DNA from: a virus
Virus record (IMG/VR): IMGVR_UViG_3300049324_000016
Location: 1-43,816 of that record
Strand: one strand, 5' to 3'
DNA length: 43,816 nt
A program made the position numbers and the translations under genes. Positions 1,879 to 39,659 of this stretch are shown in pieces. Every line of letters starts with the position of its first letter. Positions within the stretch are counted from its first letter, which is position 1. The notes under the pieces are model-generated. The model searched no databases. It was not told the origin of the DNA and saw only the letters and a list, made by a program, of their open reading frames with translations.

Positions 1879-2144
1879 AACGGCTCAAAGCCGCCGGGTG
1901 GTGGATAGGCCGGGGCGCCGGGGCACACCCCCGGTTTTCCCCCTGAGCACGGTGGCGGCACCCTGTCTTGCCCGTGCTGGTCATTGGTCGAAGCTGGCAC
2001 CGGGACCACCGGGGTTGGGTTGTCGAAGCAGACCACACCAGGGTTAGCGCCAGGGCAGTGGACCTTCTCCGTCCCTGGTTGGCAGCCAGCGACCGTGGCC
2101 GCGAGCAACGCCACCACCGCAAGCGGTGCCGCACTGATCATCAT
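1875..2144 (-). CDS. Small predicted lipoprotein on the opposite strand
   Basis: This 89-residue protein begins MMISAAPLAVVALLAATVAGC: a hydrophobic signal followed by a lipobox-like VAGC, with the acylated Cys predicted at about residue 21. The mature part is Pro/Gly/Cys-rich with paired cysteines (KVHCPGANPGVVCF, PPPCSGGKPGVC), which could form disulfides outside the cell. A GGAGGA ribosome-binding site precedes the ATG at a good distance. The gene is transcribed against folE and terL, and its stop overlaps the folE stop. Phage lipoproteins encoded apart from late operons often act in superinfection exclusion; that role is only a guess here. Confidence 0.7.
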   Translation of the reverse strand: MMISAAPLAVVALLAATVAGCQPGTEKVHCPGANPGVVCFDNPTPVVPVPASTNDQHGQDRVPPPCSGGKPGVCPGAPAYPPPGGFEPF

Positions 2145-2225
2145 GTTTTCCTCCGTGTCGTAGGCGTTCCCTGCCCTGAGTATCGCCCTGGCCACCGGAA
2201 GTGTTACGCGACTGGGGGTAGGCCG

Positions 2226-3740
2226 GTGACAGCGACGATTACCGGCCTTGACCTCGCCGCGTGGTCCAGTGCCTTGGACCGGTTGGACCCACCACAGATC
2301 GATGTGTTCGACAAACTGGATTACGTCCCGACACCCAAACAGCAAATGTTCCATGACGCTACCGAGTTCGATGTGCTGTTCGGTGGGTCCCTCGGTGGTG
2401 GCAAAACCCGCGCGTTGACGATGGAAGCGATTAGGGCGTGCATCCGGTATCCCGGTATCCGGGTGGGGGCGTTTCGGCGTACCTACGGTGAGCTGAAAGA
2501 GTCGTTGCTGGCTGAGCTGATGCAAATCAACTACGCGGCAGCGGTGCGCGCGAAGTGGAACGGGTCGGATTATGAGCTGCGGTTCCCTAACGGCTCACTG
2601 ATCATGTTCCGGTATGCGGAGTCCATGCAAGACGCCACCCGCCGCCAAGGTGGCCAGTACCAGTTGCTGATCTTCGATGAGCGGACGTTGACGCCACCGG
2701 ATGTGGTCAGCTTCCTGGAGTCCCGGCTGCGGTCGGGCCGCAAGACCATCCCGGTGCTCGGTATCCGATCGAGCGCGAACCCCGGTGGGCCTGGGCACGG
2801 TCGGGTGCGCGTGAAGTACGTCGATGCCACCAACTACGGCACGAAGATCGTCCACGACGAACGCGGCCGGACCATCCGGTTCATCCCGTCACGCATGGAG
2901 GACAACCCCCACCTGAACCCCGAGTACGAGAACGACCTCCTGGCGCTGCCTGAGGTGTTGCGGCGTGCCCTGCGTGAGGGCGACTGGGGTGTGTTCTCCG
3001 GTCAGGTGTTCTCCGAGTTGTCCCGTGACCGCCATGTGGTGGCACCGATCAACCTGCCGTTGTCGTGGCTGCGGTACAACGGCGTGGACTGGGGTTACGC
3101 CAAGCCGTGGGCTGTGCTGTGGGCTGCCGTTGATGAGGACGGCAGGGTGTGGATCTACCGGGAGTTGTACGCCACCGGTGTTGGGGAAGCGGAGCAGGCC
3201 AGACGCATCCTGGCCGCTGAGGCTGACGATGAGAAAGTCGCTGTCAGGTACGCGGACGATGCCATGTGGGCGACCCGTGGTGACGCCAAGCCGATCTCCG
3301 ACATTTACGCCGAGAACGGTGTCCATCTCACGGAGGCCGGCAAGGGCGCCGGGTCGCGGATCATCGGCTGGCAACGCATCCACTCCTACCTGGACAACGG
3401 GCCCGCGTGCCCCCACCACCGTGCCTTGGGGTGGACGGAGTGCCCGATGCTCCACATTTTCGACACGGTGGAGAACCTGTGGCGTGAGCTGCGGGACCTA
3501 CCGCACGCCACCAAAGGTGACCCTGAGGACGCGGACACCACCGCATCCGATCACGCCGCTGACGGCCTGCGCTATCTGCTGATCAACCTGGGGACCGCGC
3601 CACGGTTCCACTTCCCGCCCACCAAACCGGAGGTGACGGTGCTTGACCCCACCGCCACCGGCCCCAGACCACCGCAGCCATTACCGACGATGTACGGCGG
3701 GTTCCCCGTCGCAACTGAGGGGACGTCGATATGGGGCTGA
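2226..3740 (+). CDS. terL: Terminase large subunit
   Basis: TerL is the ATPase-nuclease that packages DNA into proheads. The Walker A motif is GGSLGGGKTR (residues 53-62), Walker B is LLIFDE ending at D151/E152, and the C-terminal RNase H-like nuclease domain starts at GVDWGYAKP (D288), with further acidic positions in VRYADDAMW and SDHAADGLRY. The GTG at 2226 follows a GGGGGT ribosome-binding site; an in-frame longer reading upstream runs through the antisense lipoprotein gene and has no good start. The product is 504 residues, normal for the family. No separate small terminase was recognised in the window. The stop overlaps the portal start by ten bases. Confidence 0.93.
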   Translation: MTATITGLDLAAWSSALDRLDPPQIDVFDKLDYVPTPKQQMFHDATEFDVLFGGSLGGGKTRALTMEAIRACIRYPGIRVGAFRRTYGELKESLLAELMQINYAAAVRAKWNGSDYELRFPNGSLIMFRYAESMQDATRRQGGQYQLLIFDERTLTPPDVVSFLESRLRSGRKTIPVLGIRSSANPGGPGHGRVRVKYVDATNYGTKIVHDERGRTIRFIPSRMEDNPHLNPEYENDLLALPEVLRRALREGDWGVFSGQVFSELSRDRHVVAPINLPLSWLRYNGVDWGYAKPWAVLWAAVDEDGRVWIYRELYATGVGEAEQARRILAAEADDEKVAVRYADDAMWATRGDAKPISDIYAENGVHLTEAGKGAGSRIIGWQRIHSYLDNGPACPHHRALGWTECPMLHIFDTVENLWRELRDLPHATKGDPEDADTTASDHAADGLRYLLINLGTAPRFHFPPTKPEVTVLDPTATGPRPPQPLPTMYGGFPVATEGTSIWG

Positions 3741-5389
3741 GGTCGTTCGTGCGGGAGGTGTTCGGCCGCAGCGAGGTGCAGGAGAAGCCCGCCGCTAAGG
3801 CACCGGTCCTGGAGCCACCATCGCCCAAGCAAGCCAAGCGCGCCGGTTTCGAGTACGGCATCCCACTGGGTAACGGTGGTGGTGGCCTGGATGTGTCCCG
3901 CCAGGTGTCGGCCAGCGCGGAACGCCAACAGACCCTGGCGCAGCTCCACCAGCTCTACATGACCTGCGACTGGGTTTCCAGCTCCGTGGATGTGGTGGCG
4001 AGGACGGTCACTGCCGGCGGCTTGCAGGTGGTGTCAGAGTCCGACGTCCCGGAAGGTGAGCAACCCGCTGACCCCCCGGAGGTCCAGCGCCTCAAGCGGT
4101 TGATGAAGTTCTGCAACCCGCGTGAGGACATGATTCAGTTACTGCGCAACGTGGTCACGGATCTGGAGCTGTTCGGGGACGCCTACCTGGAGATCGTGGT
4201 TCTGCTGGGTGAGCCGATCGCCCTGTACACGCTCGACGCCACCACGATGACGGTGCTGTCCGATGAGCATGGGGAGGTCAACGGATACCACCAGGACGTT
4301 GACGGTGTCCGCACGGCCACGTTCAACCCCGACGAGGTTATCCACTTCTCGTTGGACGCCCCCCGTGGTGGTTTGTACGGTGTCGGCCCGGCACAGAAGG
4401 TGCTGTTCCCGGCTACGGCGTGGCTGTTCGCCATGGCAACCCTCAAGGAATGCTTTAGGCGCGGTGACCCCCCGCGTATCCACGTTGACCTGGGTCATTT
4501 CCAGGACGGTGACGTGCAGCGGTGGCGTGAGCAGTACATGGTCAACAACTTGGGGCCCAAGGCTGTCGGCACCCCCATTTTGACCACCGGTGGTGGCGGG
4601 GTGCAGGTCCTCGATCCCCACAAGGTCGGGGATTACCTGGAGGCGTGCCGCAGCCTGCGGGATGAGATCGTTTCCGCGTTCGGTGTGCCCCCCGCGAAGG
4701 TGGGCATCATTGAGACCGGCAACCTCGGTGGCGGTACTGGTGAGGCACAAGACAAAACGTTCCGCATCAACACCATCATCCCCATTACCGCGATCATTCT
4801 GGAGAAGCTGAACTTCCACCTGTTGCAGGTCGGTTTCAAAATAACCAATTACGTCCTGGAGTTCAAAGAGATCGACTACCGGGATTCAGAAGTGGTGGAG
4901 AAGATCCGTGACATGCGTTTGCGGAACGGCTCCTACACCCTGAACCGGTACCGCGATGAGATCGGTGAACCACCCGTTGATGGTGGTGATGACGCTGTCC
5001 TGGTCGACCGCACCCACATCGTGGCGTGGGTCGATATGGAAGCGATGTCCAAGGCGACCATCGCGACCGCTGTGGCGCCGTTGGTCACGGCCGGTGTCAA
5101 CGGGTATGTGCCTGGTGTGCCGGACGCGGAGGAACCGGAACCACCGGCCCCGCTGGCTGGTGTCCACCCTGCCGCGCTTGCTGACCCCAAGGCCACACCG
5201 GGTGGCGCTAAGGACGCAACGCAGGGCAAGGCACCACCGGAAGGCAAGGACAGTCAAGGCAAGGCACCGAAGGAAACGCTGGATGTGCGTGATCAGCGCC
5301 GGTTGTCGGAGTCGTGGCAGCGGGCCTACCGTGCGCGCCGGGCCAAGGCGTTGCGGGACCTGCCAGAGCGGGAGTTGATCGACGCATGA
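3731..5389 (+). CDS. Portal protein
   Basis: Directly after terL and overlapping it by ten bases, this 552-residue protein has the length and character of a siphophage portal, the dodecameric ring at the DNA-entry vertex. Segments typical of the HK97/SPP1-type portal core are visible: a DWVSSSVDVVARTV helix region, FGDAYLEIV, YTLDATTMTVLSDE, IHFSLDAPRGGLYGVGP and SAFGVPPAKVG. The C-terminal 100 residues are Pro/Lys/Ala-rich and end in a basic helix (QRAYRARRAKALRDL). A GAGGGGAC ribosome-binding site precedes the ATG. Position and motifs make the call firm; the C-terminal tail is variable in this family. Confidence 0.88.
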   Translation: MGLRSFVREVFGRSEVQEKPAAKAPVLEPPSPKQAKRAGFEYGIPLGNGGGGLDVSRQVSASAERQQTLAQLHQLYMTCDWVSSSVDVVARTVTAGGLQVVSESDVPEGEQPADPPEVQRLKRLMKFCNPREDMIQLLRNVVTDLELFGDAYLEIVVLLGEPIALYTLDATTMTVLSDEHGEVNGYHQDVDGVRTATFNPDEVIHFSLDAPRGGLYGVGPAQKVLFPATAWLFAMATLKECFRRGDPPRIHVDLGHFQDGDVQRWREQYMVNNLGPKAVGTPILTTGGGGVQVLDPHKVGDYLEACRSLRDEIVSAFGVPPAKVGIIETGNLGGGTGEAQDKTFRINTIIPITAIILEKLNFHLLQVGFKITNYVLEFKEIDYRDSEVVEKIRDMRLRNGSYTLNRYRDEIGEPPVDGGDDAVLVDRTHIVAWVDMEAMSKATIATAVAPLVTAGVNGYVPGVPDAEEPEPPAPLAGVHPAALADPKATPGGAKDATQGKAPPEGKDSQGKAPKETLDVRDQRRLSESWQRAYRARRAKALRDLPERELIDA

Positions 5390-10642: not shown

Positions 10643-10673
10643 CCCGCCATGCTGTGAGTGTGGCGGGTTTTTT
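10643..10673 (+). terminator. Rho-independent terminator before the capsid gene
   Basis: CCCGCCA (10643-10649) pairs with TGGCGGG (10661-10667), followed at once by TTTTTT (10668-10673). It lies between the protease-scaffold stop and the capsid ATG. Partial termination here would change the ratio of upstream proteins to capsid protein, unless a separate capsid promoter exists. Confidence 0.8.
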
Positions 10674-10693
10674 CATGCCAAGAAAGAGCCACA

Positions 10694-12052
10694 ATGCCTA
10701 GTGAACTCCAGGAGGCACTGACCACCGCAGGGTCAGTGACCCCCTTTATCCCAAAGTCTATTGACCCGGTGCTCCTTGAGTACCAGCGTCGGTACGCGCC
10801 ATTGCTGGCCGCTATCCCAACCAAGCAATGGAACAGCACCCAGTACTTCTTCAACCGTCGTGTCGCGCGTCCCGATTCCGGTGGTGTCGTTGACGGTGGT
10901 GCTAGGCCGATCGGTAACAGCGTTTACGAGCAGGCAGTGTTCAACATTCGCCTGTTCCAGGCCGTGGGTTCGGTGACCGGGTTCGCCCAGACCGTGACCC
11001 GTGACCTTGTCGGTGACCTCCGTCAGATGGAACTTGACGGAACTGTCACCAGCATGATGTGGACGCTGGAGAACACCCTGATCTGGGGTCACGACGGTGC
11101 CACCGTCGCCGGTCAGTACCCGATCTGCTCCGGCCTGGACTACCTGGTGTCCAACTGGGTCGCCGGTTCCGGTTCCAATGCGTTCGTCAACTCCATTGAC
11201 CAGGCCGGTGGCACTTTCGTGCTGCGGTACCTGGACCAGTTGATGGACATTGTGGAAACCAACGCCGCGATGCCGGTGGGGTCATCCCACATGTTCCTGA
11301 TGTCGCCGCGTATGGCGTCGTCGGTGTCGCAGGTCCTGATGGCACAGCAGCGTTTCGAGGCACCCACCACCACCATCGGTGCCGGCCTGAACGTGCCGAC
11401 CTACCGTGACGTGCCGATCGTGAAGACGTCGTTCCTGTCTCCGCGCGCGAACCAGCAGGGCACCGTCACCACAGGCACCGCGACCACCGGTGGGACGTTG
11501 GCCGCTGCCACGTACTCCTACAAAGTGGCGGCAGTGATCGCCCGGTTCGGTGAGATCCAGGCCAGCGTTGAGGTGTCCCAGGCGACCACCGGTTCCACCT
11601 CCACCGTGACCCTGACCGTGGCTGCACCGGCGAACATGCCTGATGGTGCGGCCCCGATCCTGTACAAGATCTACCGCTCCACCTCCACCGGCGCGGAGAC
11701 CCTGCTCGGTGTTGTGGATGCGTTCGACACCACCGGTGCCGCTGTCACCACCATCACCGACACTGGCACCAACCTGCTCACCAACGGTTCAGGCAACACC
11801 GGCCCGGCTGCCTACCAGGGCACCAACGTCGGCGCGCTGCCGCGCACTGGGGTCCATGAGGACGTCTACCTGGTGCCACGGGACCCGAACTTCCTTGTTC
11901 GCCCCTACACCCGCGACATGCAGATCATTCCGCTGTCGCCCACGGTGACCGCCCCGGACACCCTGCCGTTCGCCGTCTTGACGGACACGTGCCTCGCGGT
12001 TCGTGCACCCAAGTACGTCGGCCGGTTGTCCCGTGTGATCGCCAGCCTGTAG
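10694..12052 (+). CDS. Major capsid protein with inserted beta domain
   Basis: The 452-residue product following the protease-scaffold gene is the expected HK97-fold capsid protein. N-terminal SIDPVLLEYQRRYAPLLAAI and QWNSTQYFFNRRVARP, and the C-terminal segment EDVYLVPRDPNFLVRPYTRD, followed by RAPKYVGRL, are typical of actinophage capsids. Residues ~255-375 form a Thr/Gly/Val-rich insert (TYSYKVAAVIARFGE, ILYKIYRSTSTGAET) that looks like a fibronectin- or Ig-like domain placed near the C-terminal part of the fold, probably exposed on the shell. The ATG at 10694 follows AAAGAG. An upstream in-frame ATG runs through the terminator and is rejected. Confidence 0.88.
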   Translation: MPSELQEALTTAGSVTPFIPKSIDPVLLEYQRRYAPLLAAIPTKQWNSTQYFFNRRVARPDSGGVVDGGARPIGNSVYEQAVFNIRLFQAVGSVTGFAQTVTRDLVGDLRQMELDGTVTSMMWTLENTLIWGHDGATVAGQYPICSGLDYLVSNWVAGSGSNAFVNSIDQAGGTFVLRYLDQLMDIVETNAAMPVGSSHMFLMSPRMASSVSQVLMAQQRFEAPTTTIGAGLNVPTYRDVPIVKTSFLSPRANQQGTVTTGTATTGGTLAAATYSYKVAAVIARFGEIQASVEVSQATTGSTSTVTLTVAAPANMPDGAAPILYKIYRSTSTGAETLLGVVDAFDTTGAAVTTITDTGTNLLTNGSGNTGPAAYQGTNVGALPRTGVHEDVYLVPRDPNFLVRPYTRDMQIIPLSPTVTAPDTLPFAVLTDTCLAVRAPKYVGRLSRVIASL

Positions 12053-13179: not shown

Positions 13180-13842
13180 ATGAGCCTTGACCAACCGATC
13201 CCCCTGGCCACCGCAGCCCAGCTCACTGAGGGCCCGTTCGCCAACCTGGTTCAGGGGTTCACCGCCCAAGCACTGACCAACCTGATGCTGACGGCCACCA
13301 GGTCGTGTGAGTCGGCGTGTGACCGGCGGCTGGTGCCATTCACCGGGCTACTGGAGACGATGCGCGCGGAGTCCGTCGACGTTGAGGACGCGATCGACGC
13401 CTACGTGCCGTTGGACCCCACCGCCCAGCTCGGTGCGTCCCGTGCGGCGTCACTGGGGTCCACGCTGCTGGTGCGGCACTTCTGGGTCCGGGAGTACCCA
13501 CCCCGGTACCCCGAGTTGTGGACCGGCGCGATCCAGTCGATCAACCTTTACCGGTCGTTCGCTGGTCAGCAGGCCGTCCAGACGTCCACGATGCAGTTCG
13601 AGCCGGACACCGGGCACCTGCGTTTCCAGCTTGGGACGTTCGTGCCCCAGGGCACCACCATCGCCATCGCCTACTCCGGTGGGTACGGCACCATCCCAGC
13701 GGATCTGGTGGAGGCTGGCCGGTTCATGGCCGCTTCGATCGCGGTCAAGCAACTCGATCCGGTGGATGGCCGGTCCGGCCACGATCCGGATGCGTTGCGG
13801 GCTGAGGCGATGGAGATGTTGGCGCCGTACGTCCGGCGGTAG
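13180..13842 (+). CDS. Head-to-tail adaptor protein
   Basis: A 220-residue mostly helical protein (MSLDQPIPLATAAQLTEGPF) whose last third, IAYSGGYGTIPADLVEAGRF followed by a helix ending EAMEMLAPYVRR, matches the gp6-like adaptor family that docks under the portal. It follows a GGGGGTG ribosome-binding site. It is the last rightward head gene before the accessory island, whose first minus-strand gene ends one base beyond this stop. Confidence 0.78.
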   Translation: MSLDQPIPLATAAQLTEGPFANLVQGFTAQALTNLMLTATRSCESACDRRLVPFTGLLETMRAESVDVEDAIDAYVPLDPTAQLGASRAASLGSTLLVRHFWVREYPPRYPELWTGAIQSINLYRSFAGQQAVQTSTMQFEPDTGHLRFQLGTFVPQGTTIAIAYSGGYGTIPADLVEAGRFMAASIAVKQLDPVDGRSGHDPDALRAEAMEMLAPYVRR

Positions 13843-13843
13843 G

Positions 13844-15214
13844 TCACCGACCGAGCTGAAACGGCAGCACCGGCCACGAGCGCACGTCGGGGTCCGGTCG
13901 GCAGTGGGCGCCATCGATGGTGGTGCGGTAGGTCCACGTCGGCCCATCGGTGGTGATCATGTCCAGGGCGGTCACCAGCAGCAGGACGTCATCGACGGTG
14001 GTGCCCAACCCGGCCGACATCCTCACCATCCCCGGTATCTGGGTTTCGATGCCGGCGCGGCGTGTGGCGGCTATGTACGCGGCCTGGTCGGGGGTGACCC
14101 CCATCAGCTCTGTGACCAAGGGGTGAGCGCAGAAGCACCCGTGCCTGGTGGCGATGCCCCATTCCGCTGACAAGACGGTAGCCAGCTTGGCGTACCCGAT
14201 GCGTTCTGAGGTGAACGGCACTACCGCGATACGCGGATACCCCGCTGGCCACATCCGGGGCAGCGTCACACCATCAACATCACCGAGCCCGGCGAGTGCT
14301 TTCTCGAGGATTTCCGCCTCGGCGAGCGCGATCCGGTCCATGCCGGCGCCCCGCAGCGTGTCACAAGCGACGCCCAACGCGACCGCACCGACCACGTTGG
14401 GTGATCCGGCTTCCTGACGGTCCGGGAGCGCGGCCCACTGGACGTCACCGACGCGCACGAACTCCACGGCGCCACCCCCGGCGAGATAGGGGGTGCCGGT
14501 GGCCAGCCAGTCACACGGGCCGATCAGCGCACCGCACCCGAACGGTGCGTAGAGCTTGTGCCCGGACAGCGCCACGTAGTCGACGTAGTCGGTGACCATG
14601 TCGATCCGGTGGTGCGGGGCGAGCTGTGCGGCGTCGAGAGCGAGACGCGCGCCGTAGCGGTGGGCCAGCTCCCCCATCGCCACATAGGGCCAGATCTCGC
14701 CGGTGACGTTGCTGGCGCCAGTCACGGTGACCAGACCTACCTGTTGGGCCCGCAGTGCTTCCTCCAGCGCCTCCAGTACCTCACCGGGGGTGCGGGGTAT
14801 CGGCAGAACCACCACCTCACCCCGGTACCAGGGCAGCAGGTTGGCGTGGTGCTCCGACGCGAACACCACCACGGCGGTGCCCGCTGGGACCGCTGACGCC
14901 AGCAGGTTGATCGCGTCGGTGGTGTTGCGGACGAACAGCACACAGTCATCTGGGCGGGCGTTGACGAACCGTGACACCGACACCCGCGCACCCTCATACG
15001 CCTCGGTCGTGACCTGCGATTTCCATCCCGCGCCACGGTGGACGCTGGAGTACCAGGGCAGTAGCGCGTCCACAGCGGTTTTTACCACCCGCAGGCATGG
15101 TGCGCTGGCTGCGTAATCGAGGTTGGTGTACCGGACGGTCCCACCGGTCACCAGGGGCACCGGAGTGTCGGCACCGATGAGGGATAGGTCGACGGTGAGT
15201 GATAGCGCGCTCAT
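13844..15214 (-). CDS. Class V aminotransferase / cysteine desulfurase-like enzyme
   Basis: A PLP-dependent fold-type I enzyme of 456 residues. Visible motifs: the cofactor-stacking region SEHHANLLPW (H122/H123), the conserved LALDAAQLAPHH, the PLP-binding lysine in ALSGHKLYAPFG (K220), the AGSPNVVGAVALG segment, and RHGCFCAHPL, where C362 aligns with the active-site Cys of SufS/CsdA desulfurases. These support release of sulfur from cysteine (or a related elimination), with the Cys loop intact. The chosen ATG gives MSALSLTVDLSLIG; the frame stays open upstream but overlaps the divergent gene. The gene is inserted in reverse between adaptor and connector genes. Sulfur use for nucleotide or tRNA modification is possible but no acceptor protein is seen. 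Confidence 0.85.
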   Translation of the reverse strand: MSALSLTVDLSLIGADTPVPLVTGGTVRYTNLDYAASAPCLRVVKTAVDALLPWYSSVHRGAGWKSQVTTEAYEGARVSVSRFVNARPDDCVLFVRNTTDAINLLASAVPAGTAVVVFASEHHANLLPWYRGEVVVLPIPRTPGEVLEALEEALRAQQVGLVTVTGASNVTGEIWPYVAMGELAHRYGARLALDAAQLAPHHRIDMVTDYVDYVALSGHKLYAPFGCGALIGPCDWLATGTPYLAGGGAVEFVRVGDVQWAALPDRQEAGSPNVVGAVALGVACDTLRGAGMDRIALAEAEILEKALAGLGDVDGVTLPRMWPAGYPRIAVVPFTSERIGYAKLATVLSAEWGIATRHGCFCAHPLVTELMGVTPDQAAYIAATRRAGIETQIPGMVRMSAGLGTTVDDVLLLVTALDMITTDGPTWTYRTTIDGAHCRPDPDVRSWPVLPFQLGR

Positions 15215-15244
15215 GGCGTGAGCATCCCACCAGGGGGGTCTGGT

Positions 15245-15898
15245 GTGACCAAACGTAAGGGGCACGAGCTCAGCGCGGCGACGAAAGCGAAGATCTCCGC
15301 CAAGCTCAAAGGCAAGAAGCACCCTGGGCACAAAGGCACCCACAAAGGTCACCCGATGTCAGCGGCGACCAGGGCGAAGATCTCAGCGGCGCTCAAGGGG
15401 CGCCACACCGCAGGCCATAAGGGCCACGCGATGTCCTCGGCGACCCGCGCGAAGATCTCGGCAGCGTTGAAGGGGAAACACCACGCCGGGCACGCGATGT
15501 CAGCAGCGACGAAGGCGAAGATCAGTGCCGCGCTGAAAGGCAAAACCCACAAGGGCCACCCGCTGTCCGCTGCGTCACGGGCGAAGATCTCCGCTAGCTT
15601 GCTGGCCCGCCACGGCCGCACAACCCCGCTGCATCCCGTCAACCACACACCGGGGGCGAAACGGGCACGGACCACTCACCACGGGACCAAGACCGGGGCG
15701 CACAAGCAAGCGTCACTGCACCGTCCCGCGCACCCGAAGTCCCGCACCGGTGGGCGTCGCGGGCTGATCTCCGCGCACACCCGGCGTCACCTCAAGGGGT
15801 TCCTGCACAAGGGGATTCGCCATCACCGTCACCGTCCGGTGTTGCGCCGCCGGGCGCGGGCTCACCGGGTGTGGAAGCGACGGAGGCGGTCACGGTGA
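15245..15898 (+). CDS. NUMOD3-like repeat protein with basic tail
   Basis: The 217-residue protein is built from about five repeats of the form LSAATKAKISAALKGKxxxGH (for example AMSSATRAKISAALKGKHH and AMSAATKAKISAALKGKTH). This is the signature of NUMOD3, the modular DNA-binding helix found beside homing-nuclease domains. No GIY-YIG or HNH nuclease is present. The remainder is extremely basic and His/Arg-rich (for example TRRHLKGFLHKGIRHHRHRP), ending RRRRSR. The GTG at 15245 follows AGGGGGG; an in-frame GTG at 15218 lacks such a site. Only 30 bases separate it from the divergent desulfurase-like gene. A DNA-binding, DNA-condensing or site-recognition role is inferred. Confidence 0.75.
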   Translation: MTKRKGHELSAATKAKISAKLKGKKHPGHKGTHKGHPMSAATRAKISAALKGRHTAGHKGHAMSSATRAKISAALKGKHHAGHAMSAATKAKISAALKGKTHKGHPLSAASRAKISASLLARHGRTTPLHPVNHTPGAKRARTTHHGTKTGAHKQASLHRPAHPKSRTGGRRGLISAHTRRHLKGFLHKGIRHHRHRPVLRRRARAHRVWKRRRRSR

Positions 15899-16187
15899 GG
15901 TCCCCGATGGTCTCCGGGGTGTGATCCAACGGCTGGGGGTTCTCCGGCATCGGCTGGTCACGCCACTCATCACGATCGGTGATCAACCTGTCCACGTAGT
16001 GGGGGTCCAGGCCGGTCGCACGGACACCAACGAACTGGACCTCCCCACCGGGGTTGAGCCCTGACACGTAGGCCCACGTCATGGCCTCCGCGAAGGTGTC
16101 GGCTTCGGTGTTGAGCCCACCGAGCCACTGAGGCCCGTCAGGGTGGTCGATGTCGACGAAAGACATGTGCCAGTAGGTCCGTGTCAT
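15792..16187 (-). CDS. Hypothetical minus-strand protein
   Basis: From ATG 16187 the frame encodes 131 residues beginning MTRTYWHMSFVDIDHPDGPQ. The first 90 residues (including FAEAMTWAYVSGLNPGGEVQ and RLITDRDEWRDQPM) read as a compact acidic domain. The last 40 are Pro/Gly/Thr-rich and overlap the end of the convergent NUMOD3-like gene by 107 bases. An ATG at 16166 is an alternative start. No strong ribosome-binding site is visible and no family is recognised. Confidence 0.55.
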   Translation of the reverse strand: MTRTYWHMSFVDIDHPDGPQWLGGLNTEADTFAEAMTWAYVSGLNPGGEVQFVGVRATGLDPHYVDRLITDRDEWRDQPMPENPQPLDHTPETIGDLTVTASVASTPGEPAPGGATPDGDGDGESPCAGTP

Positions 16188-16220
16188 CCGATGATCGTAG
16201 GCAGTAACGAGGAGGAACCG

Positions 16221-16484
16221 ATGGCCAGCGAAGACAACGACGCCCACCCCAACCCTGGGGCGGTCGGTCACGAGCACCAGGTGGCTGTCCACGCCGGGCA
16301 TGACCAGGAGACGGAGCTGGAGCTGGCCCGCCGTGCCACCGCTGAGGGCCTGATCGGTGACGGTGGCGACAAGGACCCCGAGGGGTACCCCGTCCACGCC
16401 GGGCACGCGCACGTCGCGGGTATCGACGGCCCCCAGGGTGATGAACCGGGCGCTGACGACGACACCGGCCACAACCAGGACTGA
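16221..16484 (+). CDS. Small acidic hypothetical protein
   Basis: An ATG with an ideal GAGGAGGAA ribosome-binding site starts an 87-residue, strongly acidic and His-rich protein (MASEDNDAHPNPGAVGHEHQ). Two similar segments, VAVHAGHDQE and YPVHAGHAHVAG, suggest a short internal duplication. Probably disordered; possible metal binding through the histidines is only a thought. It resumes rightward transcription after the accessory island and is followed by a stable hairpin. Confidence 0.6.
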   Translation: MASEDNDAHPNPGAVGHEHQVAVHAGHDQETELELARRATAEGLIGDGGDKDPEGYPVHAGHAHVAGIDGPQGDEPGADDDTGHNQD

Positions 16485-16554: not shown

Positions 16555-17046
16555 GTGAACACCGCTGACGCATGTGACCGGGAAGCGGCGTGGCTGTCGA
16601 CGGCCGATGATGGCCTGCCGACGTTGCCCGCCACCGCCGGTGGCCCCTTCGGGTTGATCCAGGCTTACTGGCCCCGGACCCCCGGTAAACGCAACGCCGG
16701 TCAGTTGTATGTGCTGCGCAGGACGATCGAGGAGAAGCGGTTCGCTAACCAGCGGCGCATGGCCACCCACCACCTGGTGCTCAAGCTGGTCTGGCCGCTG
16801 ACGTCGGGGTCCGGTAACGCTGAGGCCGATCAGCGTGGTTTCGATGCGGCGATCGATCTGGTCATTACCCGCATTGGTGGGTTCATCGGTGACAAGACCC
16901 ATGGTGGCCGGTTCCTGTCGGTCGCTGAGGGCGACCACTCCGGTGTGACGGTCCATTTCGATGACCCGGCGTCCACGTTGCCGCCGGGAGCGGAGTTCCG
17001 CGCGGAGATCATGTACTCCGCTGATGATCAAGACTTCACTGGCTAG
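16555..17046 (+). CDS. Head-tail connector / tail terminator candidate
   Basis: A 163-residue protein with a GTG start after GGGGGTGATC. The central stretch (NQRRMATHHLVLKLVWPLTS, FDAAIDLVITRIGGFIGDKT) and size resemble the stopper or tail-terminator proteins that lie between the adaptor and the major tail protein. The assignment rests mainly on gene order. Its end (RAEIMYSADDQDFTG) is beta-like. The gene restores the structural order broken by the accessory island. Confidence 0.6.
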   Translation: MNTADACDREAAWLSTADDGLPTLPATAGGPFGLIQAYWPRTPGKRNAGQLYVLRRTIEEKRFANQRRMATHHLVLKLVWPLTSGSGNAEADQRGFDAAIDLVITRIGGFIGDKTHGGRFLSVAEGDHSGVTVHFDDPASTLPPGAEFRAEIMYSADDQDFTG

Positions 17047-17428: not shown

Positions 17429-18598
17429 ATGACCGCTCTTTCACGCCTCGCGCACCTGGGTATCGCCAAGGAATCCGTGATCGGCACCTACCTGGCGCCC
17501 ACCGTGTTCGTGCCGTTCACCAAGGCCGACTACGAGGACATGTACACCGAGATCAAAGACGAGTCGATCCGCGCGAACGACTCGGTGTTGCAGGGCATGT
17601 ATCAGGGCCCTGTGGAGGCCGACTGGTCGATTGACCTCATGGCCTACCCCGATGTTGTCGGCCACTTCCTACGCGGCTCCATCGGCCCCGACACCGTGGC
17701 TGCTGGGGTGTCCACCACCGTGGCCACCGGCGGGTCAGCGATCGGTGCCACCACCCTGCCGTCCACGGCCACCATCCCGGCGCTGTCGTACATCAGCATC
17801 GGCACAGGCGCCACCCAGGAGTACGCCTACGTCACCGCAGTGACCGGGTCCGGCCCGTTCAACTTGACGGTCACCACCGTGGTCGGTCAGGCCATCGGTT
17901 TGACCAAAGCCCACCTCGCGACCGAACCTCTCGTGTCCCAAACCACCCACACTTTCAAGCAGTCACCGTCAGCGGCCAAAGCCACGTACTCCCTGACGGT
18001 GTACGACACCTCCAGTGGCACCCCGACGCTGGGGTATGTCGGTGCGGCTTTCTCCGATGTGGGAGTCAAGATCGACCCCAAGGGCTCGGTCAGCCTGACC
18101 ACCAAACTCAAGGCGCTGCCAGGGGTAGCGCAGTCCACCCCGACACCGACCTACACCGCGCTGCCGCCGGTGCTGGGTTGGCAGTGGGTGATGACCAACG
18201 CCGGTGGTGCTTCCACCCGTGGCCTGTCCCTGGATCTGAGCATCAAACGCGCGGTGGAGGCGATCCACTCCAGCAACGGGTTGCAGGCACCACGGGAGAT
18301 CTTCCAGGGCGCTCTGGATGTCGACGGCACGTATAAGGCGATCTTCGAGAACCTGACGGACCTGAACCTTTACACCAACTACACCCAGACCCCGACTACC
18401 GCGACGCTGCTGCAACCAGCGGTGTTCGGTGGAGCGTCACTGGCATTGAACCTTTCCCAATCAGGGTGGTTCAAAGGAAAACGCGACATCGGCTCCGCAT
18501 ACGTCCAGGCGGCATTCAGCCTGGCTGGTATTTACAACGCCACTGACGCCGGTTCGGTTAGCGCAGTGTTGAAGAACTTCCAAACGGCCAGCTACTGA
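17429..18598 (+). CDS. Major tail protein
   Basis: The 389-residue product forms the tail tube. Its beginning, LAHLGIAKESVIGTYLAPT, then FVPFTKADYEDMYTEIKDES, is a classic start for actinophage tail-tube proteins. An Ala/Thr/Gly-rich insert occupies ~90-150 (an Ig-like or loop domain), and the C-terminal half continues with beta-strand patterns and GWFKGKRDIGSAYVQAAF. A GAGGAGG ribosome-binding site precedes the ATG. The following gene pair with a programmed frameshift and then the tape measure confirm the position. Confidence 0.85.
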   Translation: MTALSRLAHLGIAKESVIGTYLAPTVFVPFTKADYEDMYTEIKDESIRANDSVLQGMYQGPVEADWSIDLMAYPDVVGHFLRGSIGPDTVAAGVSTTVATGGSAIGATTLPSTATIPALSYISIGTGATQEYAYVTAVTGSGPFNLTVTTVVGQAIGLTKAHLATEPLVSQTTHTFKQSPSAAKATYSLTVYDTSSGTPTLGYVGAAFSDVGVKIDPKGSVSLTTKLKALPGVAQSTPTPTYTALPPVLGWQWVMTNAGGASTRGLSLDLSIKRAVEAIHSSNGLQAPREIFQGALDVDGTYKAIFENLTDLNLYTNYTQTPTTATLLQPAVFGGASLALNLSQSGWFKGKRDIGSAYVQAAFSLAGIYNATDAGSVSAVLKNFQTASY

Positions 18599-19116: not shown

Positions 19117-19274
19117 TCGACTTCGAGTTGATGCGCCAAATGAGGTGGTCGTGGCCGGAACTCCGGGCGTGCCCGATTTACGTGCGCCGGTACGTGTGGG
19201 ACTTCCTGGAGATCCGGGCACAAGCAGAACGCGACGCCGCCGAAGACCAACGCCGGAGAAACAGTCATGGCTGA
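18637..19274 (+). CDS. Tail assembly chaperone, -1 frameshift product (gpGT-like)
   Basis: A slip at the heptamer A AAC CCT (19008-19014) would move ribosomes to the -1 frame, giving a 212-residue fusion: 126 residues of the first frame, then SLGLGEPYYEDVILVAESIY and on to AEDQRRRNSHG with TGA at 19272-19274. The shifted part contains MRWSWPELRACPIYVRRYVW and a Glu/Arg-rich end, as expected of the T domain. The shifted frame has no good start of its own, which supports frameshifting. The coordinates span both frames. Confidence 0.78.
19008..19014 (+). promoter_or_regulatory. Programmed -1 ribosomal frameshift site
   Basis: In the reading frame of the chaperone gene the bases are gtA AAC CCT, a canonical X XXY YYZ slippery heptamer (AAACCCT). 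The -1 frame immediately downstream is open for 86 codons. The site is 102 bases before the zero-frame stop. Confidence 0.75.
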
Positions 19275-19713
19275 GCTGTTGCCTGGTGTCTTGCCGGCCA
19301 TGTTGACGCGGATCGCAGCGGTCAGCGAAGTGAAGTCCCGATCGGCGTTGACTGCGGTCGCGTTGGCCGTGGAGAAGCAAGCGAAGATCAACGCCAGTAG
19401 CGGTCAACACCGGCGTGGCACCAAGACACCAGCGTCACGTGGGTCCGGTCCGGCCCGGATCTCCGGGACCTTGGTCAGGTCAATCACCCACACCCCTGCT
19501 GTGATGGGCCTGGGCGGGTGGGAGACCCGCGTCGGGGCCGCCGATGGGTTGTTCTCGCCGTACAACCACCGGACCCAGTCCAGCACCTACGGGAAGTATT
19601 TGGAAACCGGATTACGCGGCGGCAGCAAATACCCATTCCTGGGACCTGCTTTCCACATGGTGTCCAGCATCTCTATTTACACGATTTTCAAGGCTGTGTT
19701 CTCGCTGGGCTAA
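19267..19713 (+). CDS. HK97 gp10-like tail protein
   Basis: The 148-residue protein starts inside the end of the frameshift product. The pattern ALAVEKQAKINASS, then GPARISGTLVRSITHTP, and finally YGKYLETGLRGGSKYPFLGP, is that of the HK97 gp10-like family: an amphipathic N-terminal helix, a 'tgxLxxSI' strand and a 'YaxxxExG...PFLxPA' end. Members act at the head-tail joint or tail completion. Finding it after the chaperones rather than before the major tail protein is slightly unusual. Confidence 0.65.
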   Translation: MAELLPGVLPAMLTRIAAVSEVKSRSALTAVALAVEKQAKINASSGQHRRGTKTPASRGSGPARISGTLVRSITHTPAVMGLGGWETRVGAADGLFSPYNHRTQSSTYGKYLETGLRGGSKYPFLGPAFHMVSSISIYTIFKAVFSLG

Positions 19714-19734
19714 TGGATGGGGGCTTGCCGGGTC

Positions 19735-22700
19735 ATGCAACTCGATGAGCTTTACATCCTGATGCGGTTGGACAACCAGCAGGTTAACGCCGGGTTCGTG
19801 GAGTCCGGTGCCGCTGGGGACGCCATGGCGGTCCAGGTCGCGACCGCGATGAAGGAAATTGAGGCGTCGGTCGCGAAGGTCGCCGAGTCCACCCGCATGG
19901 TGACCACCGCCGGTGACGAGATGGCAGTGGCGTGGGAACGCGACATCGCCGCGATGCGCGCCGAGACAGCCACCCTGGCCGAGGGCATGGCCGCAGCGGA
20001 AGCCAAGGCCACCGCCAGCACCGCTGAGATGTCCGCTGCCATGGACGCCCAGGCCGCTAAGAGCTCCGGTCTGGCGGGGGCACTGGGCGTCAGCAACGCG
20101 GCCCTGATGGGCGCTGGTGTCGTCGCGGCCGGTGCGGGCATCGAGTTCGCCAAGATGGCCGGTGACTTCAACATGGCCACCACGCGGCTAGTCACGTCCG
20201 CTGGTGAGACCCAATCGAACCTGCAAATGGTTCGTGACGGCATCCTGGCCATGGCGGGGTCGGTTGGTTACAGCTCCGATGAGCTGGCCGCTGCGATGTA
20301 CAAAGTGGAGTCCGGTGGCCAGCACGGCGCGGCCGGGCTCAAAGTGCTCCAGGCTGCCGCCCAGGGCGCTAAGGCCGAAAACGCTGACCTGACCACCGTG
20401 TCGGATGCCCTGACCAGCGCGATGGTCGACTACAAAGTGCCGGCGGATCAGGCTGCCACGGTCACCAGCAAGCTGGTCGCGGCGACAAGCCAAGGCAAGA
20501 TGACGTTCGAGGAACTAGCCAGTTCCATGTCAGCCATCCTGCCGGTTGCCTCAGCGAACCACGTGTCGCTTGACGACATTCTTGGTGACTTGGCGAGCAT
20601 GACGGTGCACGGCATGTCCGCCCAGCAGGCCACACAGAACCTCGCGGACGCTATCCGGCACATGGCGGCACCGACCCAGGTGCAGGCCAAGGAACTGGCT
20701 TCACTCGGTATGAACGCCACCGAGGTGTCGAAGTCGCTGGGCGAACAGGGCCTTTCCGGGACAATCAACGAGATCTCTAACCGGATCACGTCACAAATGG
20801 GTCCTGACGGAATGGTCGTCCTGAACCTGACTAACGCACTGAAAGGAATGTCACCGGCGGTCCAGGACCTGGGTGCGAAAGTGCTTGACGGGTCCATGTC
20901 GATGAAGGACTTCACTGCCTCAGCCAAAGGCATGGATGTTATTAACGCCAAGCAGGTGACTAGCTTCGCCGCGCTTGCCGGAACAATGCACGGTATCGGT
21001 ACCGAAGCGAAGTCCGGTGCTGACGTCTATCAAACGTATTCCCAGGCCATGCAAAGGGCCATGGGTGACGCCACCGGCATGAACGTGGCGTTGATGATCG
21101 GTGGGGAGAACGCCACCACCACCGCCAACGCCATCAAGGTGGTGTCTGGGGCGACCGCTGACGCGAGTGGCAACGTCAAGGGGTTCGCTGAGATCCAGCA
21201 GGAGTTCAACTTCAAACTGGCAGCAGCCAAGGACGGGCTCGGTGCGCTGGCTATCAGCATCGGCGAGAAGCTATTGCCGGTCCTGACCCCGCTGGTGGGG
21301 ATGTTGGCGACTGGCGCCACCTGGCTGGCCAACCACCAAGCAGCGGCCACCACCTTGGCGTTCATCATCGGTGGTGTTCTGGTCGTCGGCCTGGTGGCTG
21401 CCACCGTGGCCACGTGGACATGGTTCAGCGCGCTGATGGCGACCAACCTGGCGCTGATCGGCATCGAGGCACCGCTGTGGATCGTGATCGGTGTCGTCGC
21501 CGCGCTGGGGTTCATCGTTTATGAGGTAATCCAGCACTGGCAAGGGGTCGCTGACTTCTTTAAGGGCCTCTGGAAAGACGTTGTCGCGGTATTCGAGGGC
21601 GCCAAGAACCTGATCATGGCACCGATCCATGCCATCGAAGGGGCGTGGGACTCGTTCGTTGGTGGGTTCACCAACCCGGCAGCTAAACTGGCCGACTCGG
21701 TGAAGGGCTTCGACCGGTTCTTCCTCGACATGGGTGCGTCCGTCAAACGCGGGTTCGATGCGGTTCTCAAGTTCTTCACCCAATCACCGGCCCAGATGGC
21801 GTTCGAGTTGGGTCAAGGTCTCGGTAAGGCGACCCGCGCTGTGGTCGATTTCGTCACGTCACTACCACAGAAAATTGGGGACCTGGGGCATCTTCTGGCG
21901 CAGAAAGGCAAAGACCTCCTCACTGGGATGCTGCACGGCATCGAAGACGGAGGCAAAGCCGTTGGCTCGTTCTTTATGGCCCTTCCAGGTAACGCCGTCC
22001 GTTGGGTCGGCAACGCCGAAAGCTGGCTTGTGCAGAAAGGCAAGGACGCTCTAGTCGGGATGCTGCACGGAGCCGAAGACGGCGCTCAAGCCGTTTGGGA
22101 TTTCCTGAAAGCACTGCCCGGTCACGTCATCGACTTCTTTGTGGCCGCACCGAGCTGGCTCTATGACGCAGGAGCCAACATCCTCAAGGGGTTGTGGAAC
22201 GGCTTTACTGGGTTCGTGGGCACCGTTTATGACGGTGTCAAGAACTTCATCAGCAACTTCATCAGCGGATTCATGTCCGGTTTCGCGATGTCGTCCCCCT
22301 CCCAAGTGATGATGAACATCGGCGGGAACATCATCCAAGGCTTGTGGAATGGTGTAGTCGAACGGTGGAACGCATTCTGGGGTTGGGTTGGCGGTATGCC
22401 CGGCTGGATCGGCAACATATTCAGCAACTCGGCTAGCTGGTTGGTCAGTGCTGGGTACAACATCGTGGTGGGTTTGTGGAACGGCATCGCGTCCGGGTGG
22501 AGCTGGCTTAGCGGTCAGGTGTCCAACCTGGCCAGCTCACTGCTCGCCACGGCCAAGGGCGCGCTGGGGATCTCCTCACCGTCGAAGCTGTTTGCCACTG
22601 AGGTCGGTGCGTGGATCGCACCCGGTCTCGCCGAGGGCATCGCCGCGACCACCAAGGTGGCCACCGGTGCGGCAACCAAGCTGGCCCAGGACGTCACCAA

Positions 22701-22932
22701 GGCAGCGCAGGGCACGACGGTGGGTGGCCTGGCAGTCGGCTCCGGTGGTGCCGGCGCGATGTTCGCCCTCGGTGGTGCTGGTGCTGCCGGTGCCGTTGGT
22801 GGAGTGAATATCCACCTCAACGTCAACGGCAGCGTGTGGTCCACCGGTGACCTGGTGAAGGAAGTCCAGCAAGCGATGCTGCGCCACGGCATCCGCAATA
22901 ACAATCCCGGAATCAATTACGCCTACGCCTGA
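19735..22932 (+). CDS. Tape measure protein
   Basis: The longest gene of the tail module encodes ~1065 residues, the ruler that sets tail length. The N-terminal third is Ala-rich and helical (coiled-coil-like). Residues ~140-430 match the phage tape-measure domain (KMAGDFNMATTRLVTSAGET, then SVGYSSDELAAAMYKVESGG). Residues ~534-598 hold strongly hydrophobic spans (LAFIIGGVLVVGLVAATVAT, LWIVIGVVAALGFIVYEVI). Two adjacent repeats follow at ~720-790 (KGKDLLTGMLHGIEDGGKAV and KGKDALVGMLHGAEDGAQAV). ATG 19735 is preferred over the in-frame ATG 19717, which lacks a usable ribosome-binding site; the choice changes only six residues. Confidence 0.9.
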   Translation: MQLDELYILMRLDNQQVNAGFVESGAAGDAMAVQVATAMKEIEASVAKVAESTRMVTTAGDEMAVAWERDIAAMRAETATLAEGMAAAEAKATASTAEMSAAMDAQAAKSSGLAGALGVSNAALMGAGVVAAGAGIEFAKMAGDFNMATTRLVTSAGETQSNLQMVRDGILAMAGSVGYSSDELAAAMYKVESGGQHGAAGLKVLQAAAQGAKAENADLTTVSDALTSAMVDYKVPADQAATVTSKLVAATSQGKMTFEELASSMSAILPVASANHVSLDDILGDLASMTVHGMSAQQATQNLADAIRHMAAPTQVQAKELASLGMNATEVSKSLGEQGLSGTINEISNRITSQMGPDGMVVLNLTNALKGMSPAVQDLGAKVLDGSMSMKDFTASAKGMDVINAKQVTSFAALAGTMHGIGTEAKSGADVYQTYSQAMQRAMGDATGMNVALMIGGENATTTANAIKVVSGATADASGNVKGFAEIQQEFNFKLAAAKDGLGALAISIGEKLLPVLTPLVGMLATGATWLANHQAAATTLAFIIGGVLVVGLVAATVATWTWFSALMATNLALIGIEAPLWIVIGVVAALGFIVYEVIQHWQGVADFFKGLWKDVVAVFEGAKNLIMAPIHAIEGAWDSFVGGFTNPAAKLADSVKGFDRFFLDMGASVKRGFDAVLKFFTQSPAQMAFELGQGLGKATRAVVDFVTSLPQKIGDLGHLLAQKGKDLLTGMLHGIEDGGKAVGSFFMALPGNAVRWVGNAESWLVQKGKDALVGMLHGAEDGAQAVWDFLKALPGHVIDFFVAAPSWLYDAGANILKGLWNGFTGFVGTVYDGVKNFISNFISGFMSGFAMSSPSQVMMNIGGNIIQGLWNGVVERWNAFWGWVGGMPGWIGNIFSNSASWLVSAGYNIVVGLWNGIASGWSWLSGQVSNLASSLLATAKGALGISSPSKLFATEVGAWIAPGLAEGIAATTKVATGAATKLAQDVTKAAQGTTVGGLAVGSGGAGAMFALGGAGAAGAVGGVNIHLNVNGSVWSTGDLVKEVQQAMLRHGIRNNNPGINYAYA

Positions 22933-37994: not shown

Positions 37995-39659
37995 CTACCC
38001 GGCTGCCACCGGGGTGCGGCGATGGGTGAACACCGCGTGCCAGTCCGCGCGCTCCCCGGCCTCAATCAACCGGATCACGTCGAACATCGAGTCGGTCAGA
38101 CCACCGAAGCAATACCGGTTCGGGCCGGTCGGTGCCTGACCGTGCCGGTACCCCGCCAGGTTCAGGGTGTACATCGGCACCTGCGGTGGGATCGAACGGT
38201 TGACCTCGATCGGATCGTCACCGGCCTGCTCATCGGTGATCAGCACAACCCGGTCGTGGGTGGTGTACCGGGCCCGCAGCGACCGTGCCGTCTCGGTGCC
38301 GCCTTCCAGGAAGTACCCACCATCACGCCACCGCGTCAACGCCGTCAGCAACGACTCCCCGGCGCGCGGCAAGAACTCCTGGCTGCGCTCCCCCGGCTGC
38401 TCATGGAAGTACTTCTGGGCACTGGAGTACGACACCAGATCCACCCGCGCGCACCGCCGCGCCAACGCGATCCCGAACAGTGCGGCCGCATCCCACCGGC
38501 GCATGGTGCCGTCCTTGGAGAACGGATCGTTCATCGAGGTGGACGTGTCGACCATGACCAGGTTGTGGCCGTCCAGCTCCGGGACGTTGTCCAGGGAGTA
38601 CCCCAGTGCCTGCTCCAGCGGCCACGACCACCGCAGTGACGGCGCAGCCCGGTACGCGGCGAGGAACTGCAACGGGCGCACACGGGACTTCCGCACGTTG
38701 TCCGGGTCGGCCAGCACCTCACTGACGCGCGCGGCGACCTTGTCGGACACACCGGCCTGGTCGAAGTTCCGCAGGTTCATCAGCAGCGCGGTGTACCCCA
38801 TGTTCGGGATGCACGCCGACCACGCGGCAGCGTCCATCGGGCCTTCCAGCCACCCACCGACAGCCTGATGGGTCATGCCGGCTGCCTTGAGGACAGTCGG
38901 GTCCAGGTGCAGGCGACGGTTCCCGTGCGCGACGTCCATCAGGACATGGCGTGCCCGAAGCATCCGCAGCTCATCCGGGATGAACTCGCCACCGCCCTCA
39001 CGGCGCCGCCGCAGGTGGTCGTACAGCGCCGCACGCCACGTGCCGATGATCGGCTTGGTGCCCTCGGTGTCGTGCAGGGAACCAGTCGGCCGCACCATCG
39101 CGATGACGTCAGCGAACCGCACCGGCTTATCCGGGGAGTCGTACTTGAGCACCGACCACTCCGAGTACAGGCGCCACACCGCGTCAGCCAACCCACGCTT
39201 GACCGGCTTGGGTAGCGTCCCGCGACCGAACGTGGCCCACCAGTACGCCAGGAACTCACCCGGCTCATCAGCGCGCTGCAACACCGCATCCACCATCTGG
39301 CGGGTGGCGCCATGCTCACCGGCCTCCAGGCGTGCGCGCGCGGCCTCAGCGGCAGCAACGATCGCACCAGAGCGCATCCCGGTGTCGAGACGTAGGTAGG
39401 TCAGGAAGTCGACCAGCCACTCCGGGTGGGTGATCGCGACGTCCTTGACTAGCTCAATGAACCGCTGGTCGCGCGCCACACCCATCTCGTGGTGGGCGTT
39501 CTCCTCCGGGACGTACGTGACGGCCAGCAGGAACAACTCTGACGGCTTGTCACGGGCATATCCGGGGTGACCGAGCGCTGTCCGGCCGGTCGGGAATCGT
39601 TCGGTGGTGACCGGGCCGCGCGCCGCGCCGGCAACAGTCCCACGGTTGTACTTGGTCAT
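37995..39659 (-). CDS. Ro60-like TROVE/vWA protein
   Basis: The 554-residue product is a Ro60 (Rsr) homologue. Residues ~1-350 form the TROVE ring of helical repeats (YARDKPSELFLLAVTYVPEE, WLVDFLTYLRLDTGMRSGAI, ACIPNMGYTALLMNLRNFDQ). Residues ~360-550 form a von Willebrand A domain with an intact MIDAS: NLVMVDTSTSM (D371, S373, S375), GGTETARSL and VVLITDEQAG. Ro60 proteins bind Y RNAs on the ring's outer face and the ends of misfolded RNAs in the cavity. The ATG at 39659 follows GAGAGGGA. The tandem Y RNA-like units lie directly upstream on the same strand. Confidence 0.93.
   Translation of the reverse strand: MTKYNRGTVAGAARGPVTTERFPTGRTALGHPGYARDKPSELFLLAVTYVPEENAHHEMGVARDQRFIELVKDVAITHPEWLVDFLTYLRLDTGMRSGAIVAAAEAARARLEAGEHGATRQMVDAVLQRADEPGEFLAYWWATFGRGTLPKPVKRGLADAVWRLYSEWSVLKYDSPDKPVRFADVIAMVRPTGSLHDTEGTKPIIGTWRAALYDHLRRRREGGGEFIPDELRMLRARHVLMDVAHGNRRLHLDPTVLKAAGMTHQAVGGWLEGPMDAAAWSACIPNMGYTALLMNLRNFDQAGVSDKVAARVSEVLADPDNVRKSRVRPLQFLAAYRAAPSLRWSWPLEQALGYSLDNVPELDGHNLVMVDTSTSMNDPFSKDGTMRRWDAAALFGIALARRCARVDLVSYSSAQKYFHEQPGERSQEFLPRAGESLLTALTRWRDGGYFLEGGTETARSLRARYTTHDRVVLITDEQAGDDPIEVNRSIPPQVPMYTLNLAGYRHGQAPTGPNRYCFGGLTDSMFDVIRLIEAGERADWHAVFTHRRTPVAAG

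Follow-up and report, generated by a model that had tools for sequence, protein, structure and literature searches.

The gene at positions 15245–15898 (plus strand) of the analysed stretch of DNA, a 43,816-nt high-GC tailed-phage record from IMG/VR that is hereafter called the window, was revealed to encode a polybasic 217-aa protein built of NUMOD3 repeats without any nuclease domain, and, judging from gene order among its relatives, this gene is a fixed member of the head-tail gene block in a family of actinobacterial phages. Our best reading, held with about even confidence, is that the product would be a late-expressed, low-specificity DNA-binding protein of the histone H1/protamine type that acts on phage DNA in packaging or in the virion. 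The repeat modules make binding to DNA appear very probable, and the position of the gene makes it seem moderately probable that the protein acts at packaging or within the virion and not elsewhere.

The open reading frame starts with GTG and stops at 15896–15898. AKISA was found at residues 15, 44, 69, 91 and 113, with spacings of 29, 25, 22 and 22 residues, and only 37 of 20,000 shuffled versions of the protein contained at least one AKISA. The NUMOD3 profile search proposed in the preliminary description of this DNA gave a strong match (PF07460, E=6.8e-22, 77.5 bits against a cut-off of 20.4), and Pfam and NCBIfam scans detected no nuclease family in the protein, bearing out its account of five AKISA repeats without a nuclease domain. 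Centred on AKISA and each approximating KGHxxSAATRAKISAALKGK, the five repeats correspond to modules at 15266–15319 (ELSAATKAKISAKLKGKK), 15353–15406 (PMSAATRAKISAALKGRH), 15428–15481 (AMSSATRAKISAALKGKH) and 15494–15547 (AMSAATKAKISAALKGKT) and to a degenerate fifth module at 15560–15613 (PLSAASRAKISASLLARH), all on the plus strand; they are followed by an Arg/His-rich tail, the conserved C-terminal part of which (RGLISAHTRRHLKGFLHKG...RAHRVWKRRRRSR) occupies 15758–15895 on the same strand.

The coding status of this frame was supported by a third-position GC content of 0.80, compared with 0.63 and 0.60 at the other positions, which is the codon bias of a gene. The dN/dS values were 0.05–0.10 against the relatives L003, L004 and L005 and 0.25 against L006, with an overall range of 0.05–0.26 comparable to those of the structural neighbour genes, and the array gene is under purifying selection. 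A chance or wrong-frame open reading frame was ruled out by these values together with the conservation described below. Identical residues are encoded by differing codons among the repeats (for instance AAGATCTCCGCC, AAGATCTCAGCG, AAGATCTCGGCA and AAGATCAGTGCC); since the synonymous sites differ, the repeats are old and kept at the protein level, not the product of a recent tandem duplication of DNA. A GTG at 15218, 27 bases upstream, is a possible alternative start, and the array start in L004 and L006 is at the position equivalent to 15245, not at this GTG. On the minus strand, an open reading frame at 15792–16188 (MTRTYWHMSFVDIDHPDG...), present in L004 as well, runs antiparallel to the array gene and overlaps its 3' end.

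With a K+R+H content of ~39%, a single acidic residue, a pI of ~12 and a charge of about +56 to +58, the protein belongs by composition with the histone H1/protamine class, being highly basic, nearly free of acidic residues, repetitive and with little fixed fold. An AlphaFold prediction (15 rows) placed a short helix at each of the five repeats (residues 11–23, 40–56, 65–76, 87–99 and 109–124) and another near the C-terminus; there was no compact fold (mean pLDDT 62.6, pTM 0.21), the helix blocks reached a pLDDT of ~77–88, and the linkers between the helices were flexible in the model. The sole PDB match of the array-family profile, a weak one (E=0.35), was the I-TevI DNA-binding domain (1i3j) at the HKHSDITKSKISEKMKGKK helix, and the minor-groove helix of I-TevI is what we take to be the counterpart of NUMOD3. 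Such a minor-groove-binding helix is part of the I-TevI DNA-binding domain (PMC1564403).

The gene order of the window was determined to be terminase (1968–3740, Pfam), portal (3731–5389, Pfam), major capsid protein (10658–12052, Pfam), head-tail adaptor or connector (13180–13842, plus strand; phrog_442, 9e-7), SufS-like cysteine desulfurase (13844–15214, minus strand; Aminotran_5, 1e-67), array gene, tail-terminator-like protein (16555–17046, plus strand), major-tail-protein-like gene (17429–18598, plus strand; phrog_290, 8.4e-18) and tape measure (19717–22932). The adaptor, which served as the synteny anchor, is the conserved upstream neighbour of the array gene, and the putative tail terminator is the conserved downstream neighbour, its assignment resting on synteny with L006, L009 and others and on the same position in Thermoanaerobacterium phage THSA-485A. 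Searches with the major tail protein and the major capsid protein yielded only weak matches, to THSA-485A and to the Leptospira phages LE3/LE4, respectively. Downstream of the array gene, a small acidic 87-aa open reading frame with HAGH motifs (16221–16484, plus strand) was found in L004 and not in L006, and its product is a possible partner of the basic array protein. Elsewhere in the window, genes for a QueD-like protein (PTPS, 2.7e-22), a radical-SAM QueE-like protein (4e-11) and GTP cyclohydrolase I (2.6e-53) stand in a row at 198–1878 and make up a preQ0/7-deazaguanine pathway, which suggests modified phage DNA; a 554-aa open reading frame at 37995–39659 (minus strand) has a partial match to TROVE, the Ro60-type RNA-binding family (5.2e-10).

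The desulfurase gene starts at 15214 on the minus strand, 30 bases from the array start at 15245, so that the short divergent region noticed earlier indeed exists. The idea that the two genes form one cargo unit, however, did not hold. Relative to L004, the segment 13847–15229 (~1.38 kb) carrying the desulfurase is an exact insertion with flanks 93–96% identical, and in L006 the desulfurase is likewise absent and the array gene, whose product is 60% identical to that of the window, directly follows the adaptor; in both relatives the array starts 3–18 nt past the adaptor stop codon. L003 and L005 keep a desulfurase that is 70% identical in amino acids to that of the window, while their array genes and flanks are nearly the same. 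Since such a divergent allele occurs between otherwise near-identical phages, the desulfurase exchanges independently.

To define the distribution of the array, the adaptor alone was used as the bait, which gave 39 viral loci, seven bacterial contigs (Streptomyces, Kitasatospora and Catenulispora) and further distant loci, made non-redundant by clustering the adaptors at 95% identity. A very basic repeat protein was located in the slot beside the adaptor in 38 of 41 adaptor-anchored non-redundant phages and prophages of Streptomyces, Kitasatospora and Catenulispora, where host names are limited to sequenced species, the viral contigs are often fragments and connectors were retrieved by peptide patterns. 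When all loci were counted, 69 of 72 connector lineages carried the slot protein, 63 between the adaptor and the terminator and 6 just after the terminator, in a sample biased by the inclusion of loci retrieved by way of the array. L001, a fragment of the window's own genome, is not part of this count, whereas L090, which had not passed the frame filter, was added separately. The array is thereby conserved, nuclease-free and confined to one place, which lends support to the earlier suggestion that it may be a DNA-binding, nucleoid-like phage protein. The position was constant among lineages with connectors down to ~40% identity, and the array start mostly overlapped the adaptor stop codon or lay within ~20 nt of it. 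The slot proteins range from 73 to ~370 aa and contain 32–64% K+R+H (median 40%) and almost no D or E (median 0.4%); they have no Cys and carry a charge of +27 to +89, the unrelated protein of L043 excepted.

Three clusters were without the array. In L016/L050 the slot holds another gene (258 aa in L050), in L043 it holds a different 123-aa protein, and in L068/L149 it is closed and no coding-like basic gene was found in the surrounding 20 kb. Because of these three lineages, the array gene is not indispensable. In a phylum-wide sample of 396 genomes the adaptor gave only two matches, indicating that a given genome seldom holds such a prophage. No cultured-phage relatives were detected by tblastn for the arrays of the window, L071, L034 and L032 or for the adaptor, a search in which low-complexity masking may hide some.

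While the slot and the extreme charge persist across these sequences, the repeat type is changed among NUMOD3, STPR-like and HYLKH, as assigned by regular expressions. NUMOD3 repeats are the majority type. The slot proteins of L022, L028, L030, L034 and L042 carry 23-aa STPR-like repeats of the kind MTAAQRAARKAKMSAAIKRRNAN; that of L034, the only one of the five above the cut-off, passed the Pfam STPRs threshold at 7.5e-11, and the array protein of the window gave no match to this Pfam profile (PF21107). STPR repeats are known to bind DNA in silkworm FMBP-1 (PMC4821344). HYLKHKRH repeats are found in the slot proteins of L019, L029, L041 and L051. The adaptor tree demands four changes for the HYLKH type, with well-supported branches enforcing at least three of them, and one or two for the STPR type. 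HRVWKRRRR, the motif at the C-terminus, is shared by proteins from either side of the deepest split when the tree is drawn with a midpoint root, and this suggests one ancestral slot protein. In the slot proteins of L070, L071 and L072, NUMOD3-like stretches are accompanied by Trp-rich repeats of ~50 aa (MSPxxQAxxRAKLxARWxxMDPxKRDKVIxYLxWKxxxKTGxWxHPKWS), and the three share the conserved C-terminus DGDNSTFNSGGW.

NUMOD3 modules have been described in homing endonucleases (PMC1564403, PMC11878797), namely those of the GIY-YIG and HNH classes, and it was considered whether the array is a relic or the recognition half of such an enzyme, its nuclease lost or encoded separately. In phage collections NUMOD3 arrays are mostly parts of homing endonucleases, and tblastn with the arrays of L095, L098 and L112 matched mainly these enzymes. 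Among the best 80 viral matches to the array profile, however, ~62 were in the adaptor slot (counting L033, L123, L144 and L076, in which the adaptor is near or beyond the contig end), and Pfam detected a nuclease domain in only three: L137 and L142, which join GIY-YIG to NUMOD3, and L147, in which the array (3341–4336) is fused to a DUF559/MTES_1575 nuclease domain and not to GIY-YIG or HNH. L134 resembles GIY-YIG by eye, and L140 was counted in no class. The remaining 13 were nuclease-free arrays outside the adaptor slot; these include arrays between the terminase (TerL) and the portal in L095 and in L141 (terminase confirmed, same gene order), before or beside a Neck1 protein in L081 and after another adaptor in L139. 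Two stand-alone arrays were outside any evident head block, L112 and L101, the latter (3986–4336, 116 aa) lying directly after QueC-, QueD- and QueE-like genes identified by eye.

Several results speak against a homing-endonuclease origin of this kind. Pfam found no nuclease in the slot homologues tested, and among the scanned window proteins the terminase was the only member of a nuclease family. The D+E content is 8–11% in the nuclease-bearing arrays, compared with close to none in the slot arrays, which moreover remain at the same site down to ~40% connector identity under purifying selection. Homing-endonuclease mobility would be seen as varied sites, association with introns or inteins and sporadic presence; instead the same slot was occupied in 69 of the 72 lineages of the array-biased sample, and no Rfam family, and with that no group I intron, passed the threshold in the window. 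A split or broken nuclease was thus rejected: neither the recognition half of a split nuclease nor a longer nuclease gene broken in this phage, both raised by the preliminary description, finds a counterpart among the homologues, and we regard a relic of a homing endonuclease as highly improbable.

In the mechanism that we propose, each of the five NUMOD3 modules would place a short helix in the DNA minor groove, as in I-TevI, and flexible Gly/His linkers would let the modules follow the double helix, while the Arg/His tail would add charge and its conserved HRVWKRRRR end probably anchors the protein. The array protein would be translated with the head-tail adaptor and, for that reason, would be present at head filling and head-tail joining. 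Its binding to double-stranded DNA would be multivalent and of low specificity, supplemented by the electrostatic grip of the tail, and packaged phage DNA is the most likely target, either for partial condensation or for holding the DNA end at the neck. A 44-kb genome has ~88,000 phosphates, and at ~+57 per copy their neutralisation needs ~1,500 copies; full protamine-like coating is thus unlikely, and the protein more plausibly acts on part of the DNA or locally. This reading gains support from the STPR-like repeats, which bring another kind of DNA-binding repeat into the slot, and from the nuclease-free arrays that adjoin head genes in other lineages. Against it, a virion protamine would be unusual, given the description of tailed phages as using a motor, and no basic arms of this kind, to pack their DNA (PMC7096446). 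Gene position speaks indirectly for a virion role; unrelated genes, such as the desulfurase and, in L050, the gene of 258 aa, can occupy the slot region too. A bolder version, possible though doubtful in our estimation, would be that NUMOD3 repeats were domesticated into a widespread virion-associated protamine-like family that coats or clamps packaged DNA in motor-packaging tailed phages, with selection on charge and repeat architecture outweighing that on sequence and with several origins of HYLKH repeats at this one site.

The main rival is nucleoid remodelling or DNA shielding in the infected cell, where the protein would late in infection coat host or replicating phage DNA, shutting off transcription or protecting the DNA from host nucleases or restriction. 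The same modules, charge and low specificity would be expected of such a protein, and both the lineages that do without the array and the L101 and L112 arrays away from head genes would fit it. The tight coupling with head-tail genes, seen in 69 of the 72 lineages of the array-biased sample, and the location of arrays in unrelated lineages near terminase, portal and neck genes nevertheless point to assembly or packaging, and host-takeover genes usually reside in early regions; an intracellular role is thus somewhat unlikely. The order adaptor, array, terminator would also accord with a structural protein that binds the neck or adaptor and whose basic repeats grip the packaged DNA end so that it does not slip out ahead of tail joining, its main role being structural rather than condensing; the HRVWKRRRR end could then be a docking site, and the matching slot of THSA-485A holds an HK97-gp10-like protein. 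Unlike typical neck proteins, however, the array protein has little predicted structure outside its helices, it varies from 73 to ~370 aa and is absent in three lineages, and a gp10-like gene, recognised by eye, apparently lies further downstream in the window (19267–19713), which makes this mainly structural role unlikely. A low-specificity protein acting on packaged DNA accordingly remains our preferred reading.

In the open-access literature searched, no phage head-tail module was described as containing a stand-alone NUMOD3 protein, and we know of no need for a histone- or protamine-type protein in tailed phages. According to the usual view, they neutralise their packaged DNA with small cations and depend on a motor, and they have neither basic arms nor core proteins like those of many other viruses (PMC7096446). 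What appears to be new here, against the known NUMOD3 of homing endonucleases, is a vertically conserved nuclease-free array within the head-tail block; if the reading is true, it would represent a new fate for homing-endonuclease modules and possibly a phage chromatin protein, directly testable in that prophages with the array gene exist in cultured Streptomyces and Kitasatospora. The GIY-YIG homing endonucleases of the I-TevI type are likewise phage-encoded and have the same helix module, S-x-x-T-[KR]-x-K-I-S-x-x-[LM]-K-G-[KR], in tandem arrays. In contrast to them, the array protein has no catalytic domain, near-zero acidic residues and a polybasic tail, and it resides at a fixed head-tail site with no sign of homing. 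The STPR proteins (FMBP-1, PF21107) have tandem 23-residue basic helical DNA-binding repeats, which resemble those of five slot relatives, whereas the window protein has NUMOD3 repeats of 22–29 aa, and FMBP-1 is a sequence-specific eukaryotic transcription factor, unlike the low-specificity protein proposed here. The HK97 gp10-like neck protein of THSA-485A occupies the same position between the adaptor and the tail terminator but is unrelated in sequence and composition. Finally, histone H1 and H1-like proteins, protamines and viral core proteins (adenovirus VII/V and baculovirus P6.9) are very basic, repetitive and of low complexity like the array protein, a likeness in composition without demonstrated sequence homology, and by analogy they would share with it a non-specific binding of genome DNA.
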